The position numbers were made by a program, and so were the translations under genes. DNA of 27,552 nucleotides. Source: a virus. The stretch spans positions 1-27,552 of IMG/VR virus record IMGVR_UViG_3300024265_000180; one strand, 5' to 3'. Shown in pieces: positions 11,594 through 22,122 of the stretch (its first letter is position 1; every line of letters starts with the position of its first letter). Under the pieces are notes generated by a model. The model was not told where the DNA came from and did no database searches. It saw only the letters and a list, made by a program, of their open reading frames with translations.

Positions 11594-13063
11594 TCAGAAT
11601 ATCGAAGGCATCGACGCCGGATCGATAATCTCGGCCACCTCGAATTCGTCGGCGTACCTCATGCCGTAGATGATTGCGTAGGCCAACGCGTCGATCTGGT
11701 CACAAGTCTGGTCTTTAAGGCCACGCCAATGCAATAGCTCTCCGCGAAAGTCACTCCACCACGGGCAGGCGTTGGTGGCCTGGCTCGGGAAAAAGACGCG
11801 ATTCTGTTTATACCACTGCTGTAGTGGAACTGAACGGCTTAGCTTATCACTTCGCTCTGTTAATTGCTTCACTTTCTTGGACGCTGGCTCCAACGGAATC
11901 ACTACGCCGGGTGGCATTTCACGTAGCATCGTTTGATATATCGGCAGGCCGAGGCCGGTGTTCTCACAGCCAACCAGCACTGGTTGATACTCCCGGTAGA
12001 CACGCTTTGCTAGCGTAATTAAGTCCGGGGCCTCGACACGCACACGCTCAACGTGCCTGAGAAACGCCATGCCGCGCTCCATGCACATATCGACGATGAC
12101 GATAGCCGAGTAGCTTGGCGGCTTGCCTTTCTCTTCGCGGTCGCGGTCTCGAGCCGTGCCAGCCGGATCGATCATCATCAACCTAAAGCACTCAGATTCG
12201 GCGACGGCTGCCAGCGTTGAGCCGTCGATGTCGATAGCCCGATAGATGTGATCCCCACCGTGTTGGTAATATCGCATCGCGTCGGGTGGGAAGATGCCGG
12301 CAATCGATACAGTCCAGTCGCCTTGTTCGAGTTGGGCACGTTCGACATCGTTAAGGTTGCTGAGGCTCAGACGGTAATCTTCGATGTCGAGCCCGGGGTT
12401 ATCCTCCAATCGCGATGGCACGAAGACTCGGCCACTGTCGAGCGTGTAGCTCATTTTGTATTTGCCGGCTAGCAGATCAGCCTCGGCTTCTTTTGTGATG
12501 AAACGTTTCTTGACCCATTCGTGGCCATCGCCGCCGGGATTGCTGGTGGCCCGCATTCGTATCGGTATGCCGACATCGCGGAGCTTACGTTGCCGGGAAA
12601 ACAGGTACGTATATTGACCTTCGGAAAATTGCGTCAGTTCGTCGTACGCCACAAAGTGATATTGCGTGCCTTGGTAACGCCGTTTGTGCGCCTCATGCGC
12701 CATGTAGGCAAAACGAATGACGGCACCACTGGGGAAGATAAACTTCTTTTGCCCTTCATTCCAATAGATGCCAGGCTTGTGTTGCCACCACTGTTTTGCG
12801 ACGTCCATAATCGCGTCTTCTTGGGCGAGGTCGGTATATGTTCGCCGGAAGATTATCGCTTTGTAATTCGGCCACGAGAGATACTGCGAGGCGGCCATTA
12901 AGATTCCCAAACTTTTGCCACCACCTGCTGCCCCGCCCAGGAATACTTCACGCCGATCAGTCAAATCGAGAAAATGCCGCTGCCGTTTACTCGGCGTTAT
13001 CGGACACCAATGCTCGACGTCATCCGGCTCGGCGAAGCTAGGCGTGCCCGTTGCTGCTGTCAT
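11594..13063 (-). CDS. terL: Phage terminase large subunit (489 aa)
   Basis: TerL is the motor and nuclease that cuts and pumps DNA into the capsid. Numbered from the start at 13063, Walker A GGAAGGGKS is at about 43-51, and Walker B HFVAYDE ends in D141-E142. The coupling motif ATSNPGG is near 172-178. The nuclease domain has D299 (MMIDPAGT), E367 (CENTG) and D458 (DQIDAL), the expected three acidic residues. The frame is open upstream to an ATG at 13183, but that would overlap the preceding gene by about 146 bases; the ATG at 13063 overlaps it by only 26 and is preferred. Length is normal for the family. Downstream is the AT-hook gene. Confidence 0.95.
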   Translation of the reverse strand: MTAATGTPSFAEPDDVEHWCPITPSKRQRHFLDLTDRREVFLGGAAGGGKSLGILMAASQYLSWPNYKAIIFRRTYTDLAQEDAIMDVAKQWWQHKPGIYWNEGQKKFIFPSGAVIRFAYMAHEAHKRRYQGTQYHFVAYDELTQFSEGQYTYLFSRQRKLRDVGIPIRMRATSNPGGDGHEWVKKRFITKEAEADLLAGKYKMSYTLDSGRVFVPSRLEDNPGLDIEDYRLSLSNLNDVERAQLEQGDWTVSIAGIFPPDAMRYYQHGGDHIYRAIDIDGSTLAAVAESECFRLMMIDPAGTARDRDREEKGKPPSYSAIVIVDMCMERGMAFLRHVERVRVEAPDLITLAKRVYREYQPVLVGCENTGLGLPIYQTMLREMPPGVVIPLEPASKKVKQLTERSDKLSRSVPLQQWYKQNRVFFPSQATNACPWWSDFRGELLHWRGLKDQTCDQIDALAYAIIYGMRYADEFEVAEIIDPASMPSIF

Positions 13064-13466
13064 TAGGACCGCCGCCAGATTGTTCGCCGCTTGCTTTTCC
13101 CGTGAGGTCGTCAAGCTTGGCATCAATTCGCGTAAGCAGGCGAGCCGTTTCGTTGCTAACGTCGTAGGGGCCTGATTCGACATCGATTATATCGCCGGGG
13201 CCAGTCTTTTCTTGGTGATCTAACTCCATCTTAACCCATTGGCGGATTTCGCTTAAACCACGAATAGCCAGTCGCGTGTTTTTGTTGGGCTCCTTTCCCT
13301 CATCGGCCCTGACCGTCGCATCCTTGGTTGCGCCTGCCAACCATACTAACGAATCCGCGACGGTTTGGCTCTGACCGTCCAGCGCACGGATCGCGGTGCC
13401 CAGCAACCGCAGATCATGCCGGCTGGTCGGATCAAGGTTGCGCAGCATGTCGTCGGGGTCAGTCAT
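13038..13466 (-). CDS. Hypothetical protein in terminase-small-subunit position (142 aa)
   Basis: The start at 13466 overlaps the upstream stop by eight bases. The protein is helical from about 10 to 90 (SRHDLRLLGTAIRALDGQ and onwards) with a polar, Gly/Asn/Ser-rich tail. Its position directly before terL is where the small subunit usually lies, and the size fits, but I cannot point to a TerS DNA-binding motif. Treat TerS as a positional guess. Its 3' end overlaps the chosen terL start. Confidence 0.45.
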   Translation of the reverse strand: MTDPDDMLRNLDPTSRHDLRLLGTAIRALDGQSQTVADSLVWLAGATKDATVRADEGKEPNKNTRLAIRGLSEIRQWVKMELDHQEKTGPGDIIDVESGPYDVSNETARLLTRIDAKLDDLTGKASGEQSGGGPNDSSNGHA

Positions 13467-17273: not shown

Positions 17274-17573
17274 CTACCGGGGCGACGGCTGAGGGTATGG
17301 GCCGAATAATGCTCGCCAAGTATTCCGCACCGGTCGGCCGGGAAGCCCCCAATACGGAACCTGTGGCAGCGTCACGGGCTGTGGGGCCCAAACACGGCCC
17401 AACGGGCCTCGCCAGTAGGCAGCAGCGCCAGCAGCCGCCCGGGGGCTCTGGGGGGCTGCCACTCCGGGAATGGGTGCCTGGCAGTTCTGGCACGATGGCT
17501 GGGCGTAGGCCGCTGTCGAGGCCAGCAGCAACAGCGTGGTGATGCCGGCAATCAGAATGGTTGAAAATCTCAT
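17274..17573 (-). CDS. Secreted Pro-rich protein (99 aa)
   Basis: The start at 17573 follows CGGAGACAATC. Residues 1-24 are a good signal peptide: Arg at position 2, hydrophobic core (ILIAGITTLLLLAST), cleavage after AYA. The mature part has CQNC near its start and is Pro-, Ala- and Gly-rich (PIPGVAAPQSPRAAAGAAAYWRG), with no catalytic motif. Such short secreted proteins with YWRGPLGRVW-type stretches are common in planctomycetes. It could be a phage-carried envelope factor. It is the last gene before the terminator. Confidence 0.65.
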   Translation of the reverse strand: MRFSTILIAGITTLLLLASTAAYAQPSCQNCQAPIPGVAAPQSPRAAAGAAAYWRGPLGRVWAPQPVTLPQVPYWGLPGRPVRNTWRALFGPYPQPSPR

Positions 17574-18193: not shown

Positions 18194-18658
18194 CTACTCC
18201 ACAAAATCTAGATCGTATAGGGTGTCCGTGTCTGTGTCTTCAAACTCAGCGGCTGGCGTCGCATCATCGGCAAACCACGTTGCGATTAGACCAGCAATCG
18301 GACCAGCAGCACACGCACCTAGCACCGCAGCAATCAAGGCCGTACTCGCCATCTTGCCAACACCGGCGCCGTGATAGTTGTACGTGTAGTTCTGGTTGTC
18401 GCCGGCTTGTAAGCTGTCACCCATATCGTCACCAACAGCGGCCCCGGGGTTTGATGCCGATGATGTCTGACCGCCGCTGGCCAACTGAGCAAGACGAATG
18501 CTGGCCATCTTGTCGCGGATGCCTATGGTTTTTCTGGCGCCTTGCAATTGCGATAAGCTCCGCAGGCCAACCAGCGCCAGCCCCTTGCGCCAGACCGAAT
18601 CATGCGTCAGCTTCGGCTCGGGAATCTCCGGCGGTGTCGCGAATTCCGAATTCGGCAT
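18194..18658 (-). CDS. Membrane-anchored protein with Gly/Ser-rich centre (154 aa)
   Basis: The start at 18658 (ATG) overlaps the end of the preceding gene by 59 bases and has no clear ribosome-binding site, so it may be wrong. The middle is low-complexity (ASGGQTSSASNPGAAVGDDMGDSLQ). A hydrophobic segment (ALIAAVLGACAAGPIAGLIATWF, about residues 104-126) follows. The acidic C-terminus (EDTDTDTLYDLDFVE) is long enough to be external. It could be a virion or envelope-embedded protein. No family recognised. Confidence 0.5.
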   Translation of the reverse strand: MPNSEFATPPEIPEPKLTHDSVWRKGLALVGLRSLSQLQGARKTIGIRDKMASIRLAQLASGGQTSSASNPGAAVGDDMGDSLQAGDNQNYTYNYHGAGVGKMASTALIAAVLGACAAGPIAGLIATWFADDATPAAEFEDTDTDTLYDLDFVE

Positions 18659-18827
18659 CGATCGTATCCAATAGTCCGCCGATCTTTGGGGTGGGAATTG
18701 TCTCGCCGTTGTGAAACGCCCAGTCGGCTGCTGCGGCGTCCCCAACGGCTTGCACAAGTATCGACGTCGATATTCTCGAAAGTGTTTCGAGTGCAGCGAC
18801 ATCATCCGTGGTAGGTTCGTCGGCCAT
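18600..18827 (-). CDS. Small hypothetical protein (75 aa)
   Basis: The start at 18827 overlaps the upstream stop (TAATG). The sequence is acidic and helical at the N-terminus (DDVAALETLSRISTSILVQAVGDAAAADWAF) and Pro/Gly-containing in the middle. Its final 59 bases overlap the proposed start of the next gene. No recognised domain. Function unknown; grouped with the other small proteins around the protease gene. Confidence 0.5.
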   Translation of the reverse strand: MADEPTTDDVAALETLSRISTSILVQAVGDAAAADWAFHNGETIPTPKIGGLLDTIDAEFGIRDTAGDSRAEADA

Positions 18828-19042
18828 TATCCACCGGCGCCCGGTGAAACTGGACCGCCCGGCGTGCTCTTGACGGACACTTCGCGGACGCCCATCGACT
18901 GCTGCATCGTGACTAGGTTTTTGTCACGCTCGTAGTTCAGGTCTTGGATTCGTGCGAACGACTCAGCATGTTGCAGAATCAGATCGCCAATCTTTCCGCT
19001 AGCGACCATCGACTGTTCGTGTAACATTTCGGCTTGTGTCAT
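18827..19042 (-). CDS. Small helical protein with Gly/Pro tail (71 aa)
   Basis: Starts at 19042, twelve bases after the protease gene's stop, with a purine-rich GAGAGAGAACGAAG upstream. Residues about 3-45 are helical (EMLHEQSMVASGKIGDLILQHAESFARIQDLNYERDKN). The end is GGPVSPGAGG. It is likely an oligomeric helper to a neighbouring protein; no family recognised. Confidence 0.55.
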   Translation of the reverse strand: MTQAEMLHEQSMVASGKIGDLILQHAESFARIQDLNYERDKNLVTMQQSMGVREVSVKSTPGGPVSPGAGG

Positions 19043-19054
19043 CTTCGTTCTCTC

Positions 19055-21082
19055 TCACTCAGGGGGTTGTTGCGACGGTAGTCGCATCTTAAACGTAGGA
19101 CTGACCACTTGGCCATCCTCATCTACAAATGACTGTTCGCTGCGAGATACAGTGCCATCTTGGTGATGTATCTCGATCACAATGGGGGGCAGAGCGGCCG
19201 CCACGGCTCCGACAATGTCGTCTACTTCTGGCGTGATGCCATCGGAGCCGGGATCACCGGGGCGGCCAGGCTGGCCGGGTTCACCAGTGGCGCCTTTTTC
19301 CCCCGGTTCACCCTGCAACCCACGGTCCCCTTGCTCGCCTTTGATGGCGTCAATCTTGGCCGTCAGCGTTGTGATCTGCTGAATGAGCGTGTTGAATTCG
19401 ACTTTAGTGACGTAGATCGATGCGGCCGTGCGAGTTGGCTTCGGTTGCGGTCTTGTTGGCTGTGCAACCCGTCGAGTTGGTTGCGTATAACATGGTTGGC
19501 CGATTTGGCAATTTTGCGTTTGATTGACGTACTTAATGGCAGCGTGTACTTCGCGAAGCGCAGCGCCGTGCGTGCCGTCGGTGCAGCGACGCCCTTCTGA
19601 ATCAATCATCCCGTAATCGTCTCCCCAGCGAACGCCAACCAATTCACCAGATTGATTGAATACCCCGCCGCCGGATTGACCATTGAAGGATCGGACTTTG
19701 AACAAGGCCATCGGTCGGCCGTTGGGAAGTTCAAGCGTGGTTCCTCGGTCAGTGCGTTCTGTATATCGCGACTCTTGAAAGCGAAGTTGCAGCGAACTAT
19801 GCGGGTAGCCAGCCAGTGAAACCGACTCCCCCTCGCTCACTTCCGCCGCTACACTCACCCACGGCACCGGCTGGTCAGTCTTGATAATCGCCAGGTCGTG
19901 TCCCTCTGATCGGTAGATACACCGGCCTGTTGCCGTCGTGCCTGTGGCCGGGTGGCTGACCGTCATCGGCGCACCGGGAGCATCACGCACGACGTGTGCG
20001 TTCGTGATAACGTAGTTGGGGTCGATCGCTGTGCCGCTTGCTTTGGATCGCATCCCGCCACCCTCTGCGACGTAGACGATGTACGATGCCCCATCCGGCG
20101 TCGTCATGCCCGCTGGTTGCTCACCCTGTTCGGTGGCCACTGACGCCACAGCAACCACGTCAGCGGCGGCGTCAGGCTGTAACGATGCAACCCACACATC
20201 ATGCAGGCCAGCGATATCAACGCCATAATGCCGCTCTGTCGCTTCGACCCACTGCCCGTCATCGAGGCCATCTTCAAGGTAAGACACAAAATGACGGCGC
20301 CCCTCTGTCACAGTCTCAGCCTGCCCAATCAGGAACGCCGCAATTGAATATCCCTGTGCGTATAAGGGCATCACATCCGGCGGATACTCCGTCATCGCGT
20401 ACATGCGACTGAGCGGAATCCCGCGACGTGTCCGCAAGAAATGGATCAACGCCGCGTCATGCTTTGTACGTTCGCTAGCGTGTTCAACCGTCGTGCAAGC
20501 CCCTTCGTCGGCCCAGCGTGGCAATGGTTCGCGGAAGTGACTGGCGAAAATTGTGTGCGTCACTTCGTGGGGAATGACGCTATCAAGAATTCGTTGGGGG
20601 CTGCCTTGGACCCGCATATTCCACCTGCCAACGCGGCCACCATCAAATACAAAACGCGTCATGCCACCTGCGCCCATGTTGCCAGCCGTCACTGAGATTG
20701 GGCAGGGTTGCGACCACTGCGCCAGTTCCGCCCCCAACCAGTCGATCGCTAATTCACGTCGGCACGTCTCGGCCGTGTCTGCGACCCTTTGCGCCCACTC
20801 TTGCGATGATGCCGAGACGATGAAGTTAGGCGTGCGAGCCGAGGCGCCCCAACACGGCGCCACCAAACACAGCAGTATGCCAACGGTCGTGATAAGGCGA
20901 GACACCAGCGACGAAGGGTGAACCAAGATGGTATCGCCCATTTCAATCGGCTGGTTGCCGAGCGGTGGAATGTGGAACGCGATCCGTGGGTTGTCGTTGC
21001 AACCATCGCCATCACGCAAGCGGCTCGTGCCTAATTCTCGGGTGCCTTCAATGTGTGGCACGTGTTTGATGACTTCATTCAT
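19055..21082 (-). CDS. Metallopeptidase-trypsin-like protease-collagen fusion, membrane-anchored/secreted (675 aa)
   Basis: Order: about 57 polar residues, a hydrophobic anchor or signal (about 59-80), a gluzincin-type metallopeptidase domain (85-300) with HEVTH at 172-176 and the third ligand in WADEG (E193), then a trypsin-like domain (320-520) with H363 (ITNAHV), D396 (GHDLAII) and S470 (NGQSGGGV). A Thr/Pro-rich linker and coiled coil (about 525-580) lead to a collagen Gly-X-Y stretch (582-615) and a short C-terminal domain. The metallopeptidase part resembles secreted planctomycete proteins. Excellent ribosome-binding site (GTAGGAGGT). A phage-encoded surface or tail-like protease is plausible, but a host-derived gene is equally possible. 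Confidence 0.8.
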   Translation of the reverse strand: MNEVIKHVPHIEGTRELGTSRLRDGDGCNDNPRIAFHIPPLGNQPIEMGDTILVHPSSLVSRLITTVGILLCLVAPCWGASARTPNFIVSASSQEWAQRVADTAETCRRELAIDWLGAELAQWSQPCPISVTAGNMGAGGMTRFVFDGGRVGRWNMRVQGSPQRILDSVIPHEVTHTIFASHFREPLPRWADEGACTTVEHASERTKHDAALIHFLRTRRGIPLSRMYAMTEYPPDVMPLYAQGYSIAAFLIGQAETVTEGRRHFVSYLEDGLDDGQWVEATERHYGVDIAGLHDVWVASLQPDAAADVVAVASVATEQGEQPAGMTTPDGASYIVYVAEGGGMRSKASGTAIDPNYVITNAHVVRDAPGAPMTVSHPATGTTATGRCIYRSEGHDLAIIKTDQPVPWVSVAAEVSEGESVSLAGYPHSSLQLRFQESRYTERTDRGTTLELPNGRPMALFKVRSFNGQSGGGVFNQSGELVGVRWGDDYGMIDSEGRRCTDGTHGAALREVHAAIKYVNQTQNCQIGQPCYTQPTRRVAQPTRPQPKPTRTAASIYVTKVEFNTLIQQITTLTAKIDAIKGEQGDRGLQGEPGEKGATGEPGQPGRPGDPGSDGITPEVDDIVGAVAAALPPIVIEIHHQDGTVSRSEQSFVDEDGQVVSPTFKMRLPSQQPPE

Positions 21083-21224
21083 CGCAGCTACCTCCTACGT
21101 CGTCGTGTTCTGGCAAAAACACCTGTTTTCTCTCCGCCTCGCTGACATCGTCCACTATGGCTCGTGAAAGTTCTTCGAGGCTCATTGCCAGCAATTCTTT
21201 CATAATCGTAGGTGTCTTACTCAT
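21075..21224 (-). CDS. Tiny acidic protein (49 aa)
   Basis: ATG at 21224 overlaps the upstream stop by eight bases, and its TGA overlaps the protease gene's start by eight bases; its last codons contain the protease gene's ribosome-binding site. The protein is helical and acidic (MKELLAMSLEELSRAIVDDVSEAERKQVF). Translation appears to link the membrane-protein genes to the protease gene. Unknown family. Confidence 0.5.
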   Translation of the reverse strand: MSKTPTIMKELLAMSLEELSRAIVDDVSEAERKQVFLPEHDDVGGSCDE

Positions 21225-21330
21225 CGAAGTAGACTCCCAACAAGTACAGCACCACAGCTAAGATGTTAAACGACAAACTGGCGGTGATGATTGAAATCAC
21301 TAGGTTAGTGTATTGGTTTCGACTCAGCAC
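21217..21330 (-). CDS. 37-aa membrane protein
   Basis: The GTG at 21330 is preceded by GGGAGACTGCT, a good ribosome-binding site; the longer frame starting at 21411 is less likely because it would overlap the upstream gene fully. A single hydrophobic helix (about 11-33: ISIITASLSFNILAVVLYLLGVYF) almost fills the protein. It could be a holin-like or regulatory membrane peptide. Its position between a papain-like enzyme and a protease suits a lysis or envelope module; this is inference. Confidence 0.5.
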   Translation of the reverse strand: MLSRNQYTNLVISIITASLSFNILAVVLYLLGVYFDE

Positions 21331-21511
21331 AGCAGTCTCCCTTCGGCGTTTCTTCGTGAGCGGCTGAGCAATTGCATGGCGTGATGCGTTCTCTTGTGCG
21401 ACGCTCAGCATCTCTTTCTAAATGTTCGCCTAGCAATGTGCCGACAAACAACATAGCCAAGCAAGCGCCGATAATGAGCATGTGGTCGATTATATCTTGA
21501 TTCAATTTCAT
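21305..21511 (-). CDS. Small membrane protein with Cys-rich tail (68 aa)
   Basis: The start at 21511 overlaps the stop of the papain-like enzyme gene (ATGA), with AGGA nine bases before. Residues about 11-28 (MLIIGACLAMLFVGTLLG) form one transmembrane helix. A basic/acidic helix and a tail with CNC and CC follow, possibly metal- or disulfide-linked. Candidate holin or spanin-like role from location and size only. No family recognised. Confidence 0.55.
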   Translation of the reverse strand: MKLNQDIIDHMLIIGACLAMLFVGTLLGEHLERDAERRTRERITPCNCSAAHEETPKGDCCAESKPIH

Positions 21512-22122
21512 CCCGGCTGAATCCTCATCGCCCCAGGTATGAACAGCCCGCCACGGTAATGATCGCACGGTTCTGTCGAGTGGCTTGCCAGACCGTCGGT
21601 CGGGTCAATGCCTTGTTGGTTCCACGCACGATCAACCGCATCGGTGCAATACGGCGGATACTTCGATATGGCATTGTCGTCTGTGATCGTCGGGAACAAC
21701 AATCGTAACCCACGCATCCTAGACAGCCCAACGCGGATCACATTCCAGCGACCGTAATCGAGGCCCGTCATATCCCACATTGCATCGGCAGCACGTACGC
21801 CATCGGCTTCGGGCCAGTGCTCCCGATCGACCGGGAACCAAGAGATATGACCGGGATAAATGCTGAGTTGTAACGCGAAGTCGACAGCCCGGACGCCACG
21901 ATATTCGCGCGATTCGAGCAAGATGATGCGGTCTTCGTGAATGTCCGCCATGCCCTCGTGCGAGTACGGGCAGCGGCCATCACGCTGTATTCGGGCGGAC
22001 ATAGCCCCCTCACCCTCAAACAAAAAGGCGTCGCCCGGTCGGATGTACGGGGCAATTTCACTGAGTCGCGGTTCCTGGAGCGGCAACCCAGGCGGCAGCG
22101 CGATGGCCTGTTGGTTACTCAT
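21508..22122 (-). CDS. Papain-like NlpC/P60 (C92/YiiX-type) putative cell-wall enzyme (204 aa)
   Basis: The pattern suits permuted papain-like enzymes: RPGD at 28-31, SHEG with H55 (PYSHEGMADI), E70 in RIILLE, YPGHISWF, then YCTDAV with C159. These residues are the usual catalytic Cys/His and the conserved GD. Family members split peptides or amides in murein or other substrates; for a phage this could be a lysin or tail-associated lysozyme, but planctomycetes use unusual walls, so the substrate is unclear. No signal peptide is seen. The start at 22122 has no good ribosome-binding site, so it may be elsewhere. Confidence 0.6.
   Translation of the reverse strand: MSNQQAIALPPGLPLQEPRLSEIAPYIRPGDAFLFEGEGAMSARIQRDGRCPYSHEGMADIHEDRIILLESREYRGVRAVDFALQLSIYPGHISWFPVDREHWPEADGVRAADAMWDMTGLDYGRWNVIRVGLSRMRGLRLLFPTITDDNAISKYPPYCTDAVDRAWNQQGIDPTDGLASHSTEPCDHYRGGLFIPGAMRIQPG

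Follow-up and report, generated by a model that had tools for sequence, protein, structure and literature searches.

The question raised by this locus is what a phage does with a single gene in which two different proteases are joined to a collagen-like stalk. Our window, that is, the whole stretch of DNA that was analysed, is the IMG/VR record IMGVR_UViG_3300024265_000180 of 27,552 bases, in which terminase, RecE, RecT and RusA genes are recognised by Pfam and PHROG profiles. The main gene occupies positions 19055..21082 of the minus strand, which also carries each of its parts and each neighbouring cassette or terminase gene located below, and its frame runs over 675 amino acids with zero internal stops. 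ORF and Pfam analyses describe its product as a gluzincin domain followed by a trypsin-like domain, a coiled coil, a collagen-like stretch and a C-terminal helix-hairpin, with predicted export. A second contig of the same phage, IMGVR_UViG_3300028610_000602 (49,984 bases), is 99.996% identical to the window across 27,539 bases and contains the main gene at 100% identity; it additionally encodes a major capsid protein and virion-morphogenesis genes. The phage location given in the original prediction stands. Because the whole gene is identical in this second assembly, a frameshift artefact, with two separate genes in place of one, is unlikely.

The gluzincin (Peptidase MA-like) domain spans residues 82-302 (20177..20839). 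Its HEVTH zinc motif (residues 172-176, 20555..20569) is conserved across hosts and phages, and the third zinc ligand, E193, is encoded at 20504-20506. The catalytic residues H172, E173, H176 and E193, as well as H363, D396 and S470 of the second protease, were all found at the numbering originally proposed, so both active sites appear intact in sequence. The Pfam model Peptidase_MA_2 reaches only 18.3 bits (E 0.002) on the window protein, below its 32.4-bit cut-off, which is exceeded by the relatives encoded in viral contigs L099 (44.8 bits) and L122 (35.0 bits). The assignment is nevertheless secure, since the domain is homologous to the L099 protein (44-45% identity) and its AF2 model, with a pLDDT of about 97, matches known gluzincins in fold: VIA-align gave Z scores of 14.1 with M30 lugdulysin, about 13 with M9 collagenases, and 10-12 with M1-type enzymes. 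With the whole model, Foldseek gave merely E about 5e-3 for the gluzincin, and it was VIA-align that settled the assignment. As modelled, the phage domain thus appears to share its fold with lugdulysin and the M9 collagenases.

The trypsin-like domain covers residues 333-492 (19607..20086), with the intact triad H363/D396/S470. Trypsin_2 matches at residues 348-484 with 71 bits against a cut-off of 27.6 (E 2.3e-19), and the Pfam Trypsin model is also above its cut-off (9.7e-9). The AF2 model of this domain is of low confidence, two trypsin rows having been misaligned in the input, and is uninformative on the trypsin fold. A coiled-coil-like helix at about residues 563-586 (19325..19396), read from AF2 secondary structure at low pLDDT, precedes the Gly-X-Y stretch at residues 582-617 (19232..19339). 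The latter comprises 11-12 triplets and is far beyond chance, since among 20,000 randomly shuffled versions of the protein a single one reaches even 6 consecutive Gly-X-Y triplets; the collagen stretch originally placed at 582-615 therefore stands. The Pfam Collagen model scores 26.0 bits at 582-615 against a cut-off of 27.2, so that, of the three profile searches that had been suggested, the one for trypsin returned a match above its threshold and those for Peptidase_MA_2 and collagen fell below theirs. The protein has a sixth part that had not been listed, a C-terminal helix and beta-hairpin module at about residues 618-650 (19094..19231), supported by AF2 and by alignment. Residues 620-638 were considered as a membrane segment, marginal by hydropathy, and this was rejected, as AF2 gives a helix and then a strand.

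The N-terminal hydrophobic stretch was originally called a membrane anchor, but a cleavable signal peptide is the better reading: hydrophobic residues 59-77 are followed by ASA just ahead of the mature domain, a placement that fits that of the exported host homologs. In the reading from M48 to A81, the predicted signal peptide is encoded at 20840..20941, its cleavage being presumed from hydropathy and from its position in those homologs. The choice of start codon is divided, with a strong Shine-Dalgarno-like sequence (aggagg, 21091..21096, 8 bases ahead of the ATG of M1) favouring M1 and homology favouring M48. A predicted signal peptide agrees with a secreted enzyme, one of the options that had been offered.

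To place the gluzincin domain among cellular proteins, we searched host genomes with a bait alignment that included three synthetic variant rows, used solely to fetch real loci. Gluzincin relatives are encoded by 477 of 500 pattern-matched genome stretches, and the best 80 of the 477, with 52-64% identity, are all from Planctomycetota, mostly Pirellulales, except for two titled only "bacterium". The identity between the window domain and host proteins is about 52-66%. Based on these comparisons, we firmly assign the domain to a planctomycete host family, which makes a planctomycete bacterium the most likely host of the phage. The host genes (L015-L094) encode a signal peptide, an MA domain and a Pro/Ala-rich tail and are widespread in Pirellulales and related planctomycetes; their function seems undescribed. 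The phage protein resembles them in its HEXXH motif and glutamate, its fold and the position of the signal peptide. However, the host proteins examined end in the Pro/Ala-rich tail, whereas the phage protein adds the trypsin-like domain, the stalk and the hairpin; in the best 80 host loci the reading frame has neither a trypsin match nor a collagen run. Matches were obtained in 108 of 392 planctomycete genomes, where the trypsin-only ones were located elsewhere and zero spanned both proteases; the domain order was thus not common in the host genomes searched. In our tree, the phage gluzincins branch off at the base of the host group or outside it, a placement that the long branches make unsure and that is compatible with a single origin. 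A recent capture from a host, in which the phage sequences would be nested among the host ones, is unsupported by this tree, subject to the same long branches.

Whole-protein searches with the 675-residue product gave a single full match, the second contig of the same phage; the other matches were weak and covered only the trypsin or only the collagen part, in named phages and plasmids. Likewise, the window protein and a thioredoxin-trypsin fusion gave only single-domain matches among 50,697 phage records. The viral scans, which used short exact-type patterns and may have passed over further cases, returned no gluzincin and trypsin fusion other than that of the window, and we found no description of the two-protease combination or of its cassette in the literature searched. 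The parts are known singly, and what appears to be new is the combination and the cassette. The original prediction had missed the shuffled phage family to which the protein belongs.

The gluzincin is present in twelve further viral contigs (from two scans, the second of which mostly re-found the results of the first). It is fused to thioredoxin in L097, L101, L122 and L123, and weakly so in L099; to collagen in L100; and in L102 and L121 a coiled coil is its sole companion. With the trypsin domain as query, 46 other viral loci were recovered, many of them encoding exported trypsin fusions, some of which end in a C-terminal membrane segment. Trypsin and collagen are fused in L130, L134, L145 (with two near-copies), L171 and L175, and thioredoxin and trypsin in L149, L159, L162, L166 and L168. 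The trypsin-like domain of the window occupies the position held by thioredoxin in L099, L101, L122 and L123. Judging from these sequences, the main gene belongs to an undescribed family of modular phage genes, where a single slot appears to hold an exported fusion drawn from gluzincin, thioredoxin and trypsin on a collagen or coiled-coil stalk. The slot is found after a gene for a permuted-papain (C92/YiiX-fold) enzyme or a lipase, usually upstream of terminase, and the fusions are predicted to end either in their own membrane segment or in a hairpin accompanied by a separate membrane-protein gene.

The closest likenesses to the window protein differ in what they leave out or exchange. The uncharacterised trypsin and collagen proteins of L130, L134, L145 and L171 have Trypsin_2, collagen and the C-terminal helix-hairpin in the same order by alignment, and in L134 and L145 a membrane partner lies downstream as in the window; unlike the window protein, they lack the gluzincin. 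The fusions of L149, L159, L162, L166 and L168 are, like that of the window, exported, stalked and placed behind a C92-fold gene, but they have thioredoxin in place of the gluzincin and their own C-terminal membrane segment. A secreted trypsin-like protein with a segment that by eye resembles a copper-amine-oxidase N domain was also seen beside phage structural genes at L005 5722-6486, probably from a Firmicutes phage.

The order of genes around the slot recurs. A C92-fold gene lies directly upstream of the fusion in L097, L100, L102, about a dozen distinct trypsin contigs and the window; in L098 it is found a few genes higher upstream, and in L099 and L122 it is replaced by a class 3 lipase. 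After the hairpin-type fusions (window, L123, L145, L134) comes a further gene, whose product has a single membrane segment and, in several cases, a DTDTDT-like tail. A family of 301-residue proteins comes after several fusions that have their own membrane segment (L097 7528-8433; starting at L096 11588, L100 10896, L101 4266, L102 11399, L158 1895, L165 2767 and L175 9166) and was not found beside the hairpin-type ones. Often next in line are holin-like proteins and nucleases of the SNase, NUC1 and PLD types, several of which have signal peptides (SNase in L099, L122 and L123; NUC1 in L096 and L097), and terminase follows the cassette in most loci within the stretch fetched. Some loci also encode an exported protein that has no Pfam match and looks CAP-like by eye (L096 8751-9944, the N-terminus in L097, L098 7761-9938, L128 8696-9265); in L096 and L098 it has a gene of its own upstream, and in L097 part of it is joined, along with thioredoxin, to the gluzincin. 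One cassette-bearing record, L158 (IMGVR_UViG_2509276002_000001), has an IMG number that suggests the genome of an isolate, in which case its host may be culturable.

In the window, the main gene lies between RecT and terminase, adjoining genes for exported enzymes. Its upstream neighbour (21508..22122) encodes a putative permuted papain-fold enzyme, identified by alignment, AF2 and Foldseek (E 1.6e-7 with 3kw0 and 8.8e-5 with YiiX, 2if6). D31, H55, E70 and C159 are invariant, the invariance of H55, E70 and C159 having been checked over six homologs. YiiX and the C92 family are permuted NlpC/P60 enzymes (PMC3142127); the neighbour resembles them in fold and in the conserved His, Glu and Cys, but its sequence is too distant for Pfam PF05708, which does not match the window copy and gives 24.3 bits against a cut-off of 27 for that of L102. 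The neighbour protein of the window has no evident signal peptide, and no relative of it or of the 301-residue protein of the cassette was found in the 50,697 phage records. The neighbour gene is separated from the fusion by a short ORF and two tiny ones for membrane proteins: by hydropathy, a 68-residue protein with an N-terminal membrane segment (21305..21511; no PHROG match), a candidate for a holin- or spanin-like topology, and a 37-residue protein with a single membrane segment and a GTG start (21217..21330). Directly downstream of the fusion, a 71-residue soluble protein (18827..19042) resembles by eye a 93-residue protein in the same place in L134. The membrane partner, ending EDTDTDTLYDLDFVE, is encoded at 18194..18508; homology and HMM searches found its homologs after the hairpin-type fusions of L145, L123 and L134, with 45% identity over 44 residues to that of L145 (E 3e-6 in a tiny set). 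Further on are a small secreted Pro-rich protein of 99 residues with a CxxC motif (17274..17573), similar in appearance to one in the same place in L145, and the terminase large subunit (11594..13183; Pfam/PHROG), which marks the phage origin and the position of the cassette. Elsewhere in the window, ORF 990-2108, without a Pfam or PHROG match, contains a 33-base in-frame tandem repeat at 1820-1920 (ELNCEAAYEQI three times). In the second contig (L008), an intein-like segment splits a Mu-F-like head protein at 895-2931; it scores 21.5 bits with Intein_splicing, which is below the cut-off, and has N- and C-terminal splice-like motifs recognised by eye.

The place before terminase, the export, the permuted NlpC/P60-fold hydrolase and the holin-like neighbours make this arrangement resemble a lysis cassette. 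Our preferred reading is that the product of the main gene is a stalked enzyme with two proteases, exported via Sec and belonging to a phage of planctomycetes, and that its cassette functions as a lysis cassette would, a proposal in which our confidence and our doubt are about evenly balanced. If the cassette is a lysis module, ordinary endolysins should be missing from these phages. Amidase_2, NLPC_P60, Phage_lysozyme, M23 and SLT matches were found in none of the 27 cassette-bearing records (1.04 Mb), which are fragments, so that missing endolysins may lie outside them, and in which distant families were not covered. Phage_lysozyme and Amidase_2 alone were found in 9 of 24 trypsin-only viral records (0.84 Mb), and the difference between 0/27 and 9/24 gives a Fisher p of 4e-4, with a control set not matched for host. 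A holin match was obtained in L134 (phrog_689, E 7.5e-4) and a weak Rz-spanin match in L122 (E 0.004); most small membrane proteins of the cassettes have no clear holin match, and PHROG identified neither holin nor spanin in the window.

The wall of planctomycetes has been described as a disulfide-bonded protein sacculus (PMC2754498), wall preparations contain cysteine-rich YTV proteins (PMC8567305), and Planctopirus limnophila can do without most of its genes for peptidoglycan synthesis (PMC10632474). The enzyme would be exported via Sec to the periplasm, where its stalk may trimerise and the protein would be tethered to the membrane by the C-terminal segment of the fusion itself or by a separate membrane partner. 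The proteases could then cut the cysteine-rich protein wall; in relatives, thioredoxin could reduce wall disulfides, and the papain-fold enzyme or lipase may attack lipid or residual peptidoglycan. We propose more tentatively, at somewhat less than an even chance for the joint claim, that planctomycete phages lyse their hosts without classical murein hydrolases, the disulfide-linked sacculus being dismantled by shuffled, tethered protease, thioredoxin and trypsin fusions with the help of a lipid- or peptide-cleaving permuted-papain enzyme or a lipase. Compared with holin-endolysin-spanin cassettes, the phage cassette is alike in its place before terminase, its small membrane proteins and its papain-fold hydrolase, but no classical murein hydrolase was found in it and proteases, thioredoxins, lipases and nucleases are present instead. 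Several observations count against lysis: peptidoglycan is present in planctomycetes (PMC4432640), the window has no clear holin or spanin and its papain-fold protein lacks an evident signal peptide, a lysis module would not be expected to include the exported nucleases (SNase, NUC1, PLD) of related cassettes, and proteases that leave the cytoplasm early would have to be held in check until lysis.

Those nucleases are among the points in favour of the main rival, an exported module for envelope remodelling or superinfection exclusion, which we consider rather unlikely. Its proteases would trim receptors on the host surface or proteins of incoming phages, the envelope would be altered by thioredoxin and lipase, and the exported nucleases, which have signal peptides in several cassettes (L099, L122 and L123 for SNase; L096 and L097 for NUC1), would cut DNA entering the periplasm. 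Membrane-tethered ectoenzymes suit a standing surface function, and the isolate-like number of L158 hints at a resident prophage. However, the position just ahead of terminase, in the company of holin-like proteins, fits lysis better, as do the five endolysin families missing from the 27 records, and casual inspection of the genes around the cassettes showed neither an integrase nor a repressor. We find it improbable that the enzyme is an exo-protease taken over from the host to nourish the infected cell or to release virions bound to particles: the gluzincin is indeed a widespread exported protein in planctomycetes, but in our tree the phage copies do not lie within the host group as recently captured ones would, the stalk, the partner genes and the constant location are typical of phage, and a tether would be unnecessary. 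The tail-fibre-borne protease trimerised by collagen, another option of the original prediction, is very improbable, because the PHROG tail-fibre profiles match only around residues 558-636, that is, the Gly-X-Y stretch and its flanks, while the product has a predicted signal peptide, the gene adjoins an exported-enzyme cassette before terminase rather than tail genes, and the collagen of the same slot continues into a membrane segment in L100 and L175.

The preferred reading, in which the cassette serves lysis, bears on how viruses break planctomycete cells and on what share of the planctomycete wall is protein and what share is peptidoglycan. With its single slot for interchangeable proteases and thioredoxins, and with none of five classical endolysin families seen in the records that carry it, this conserved phage cassette offers candidate enzymes for planctomycete sacculi.
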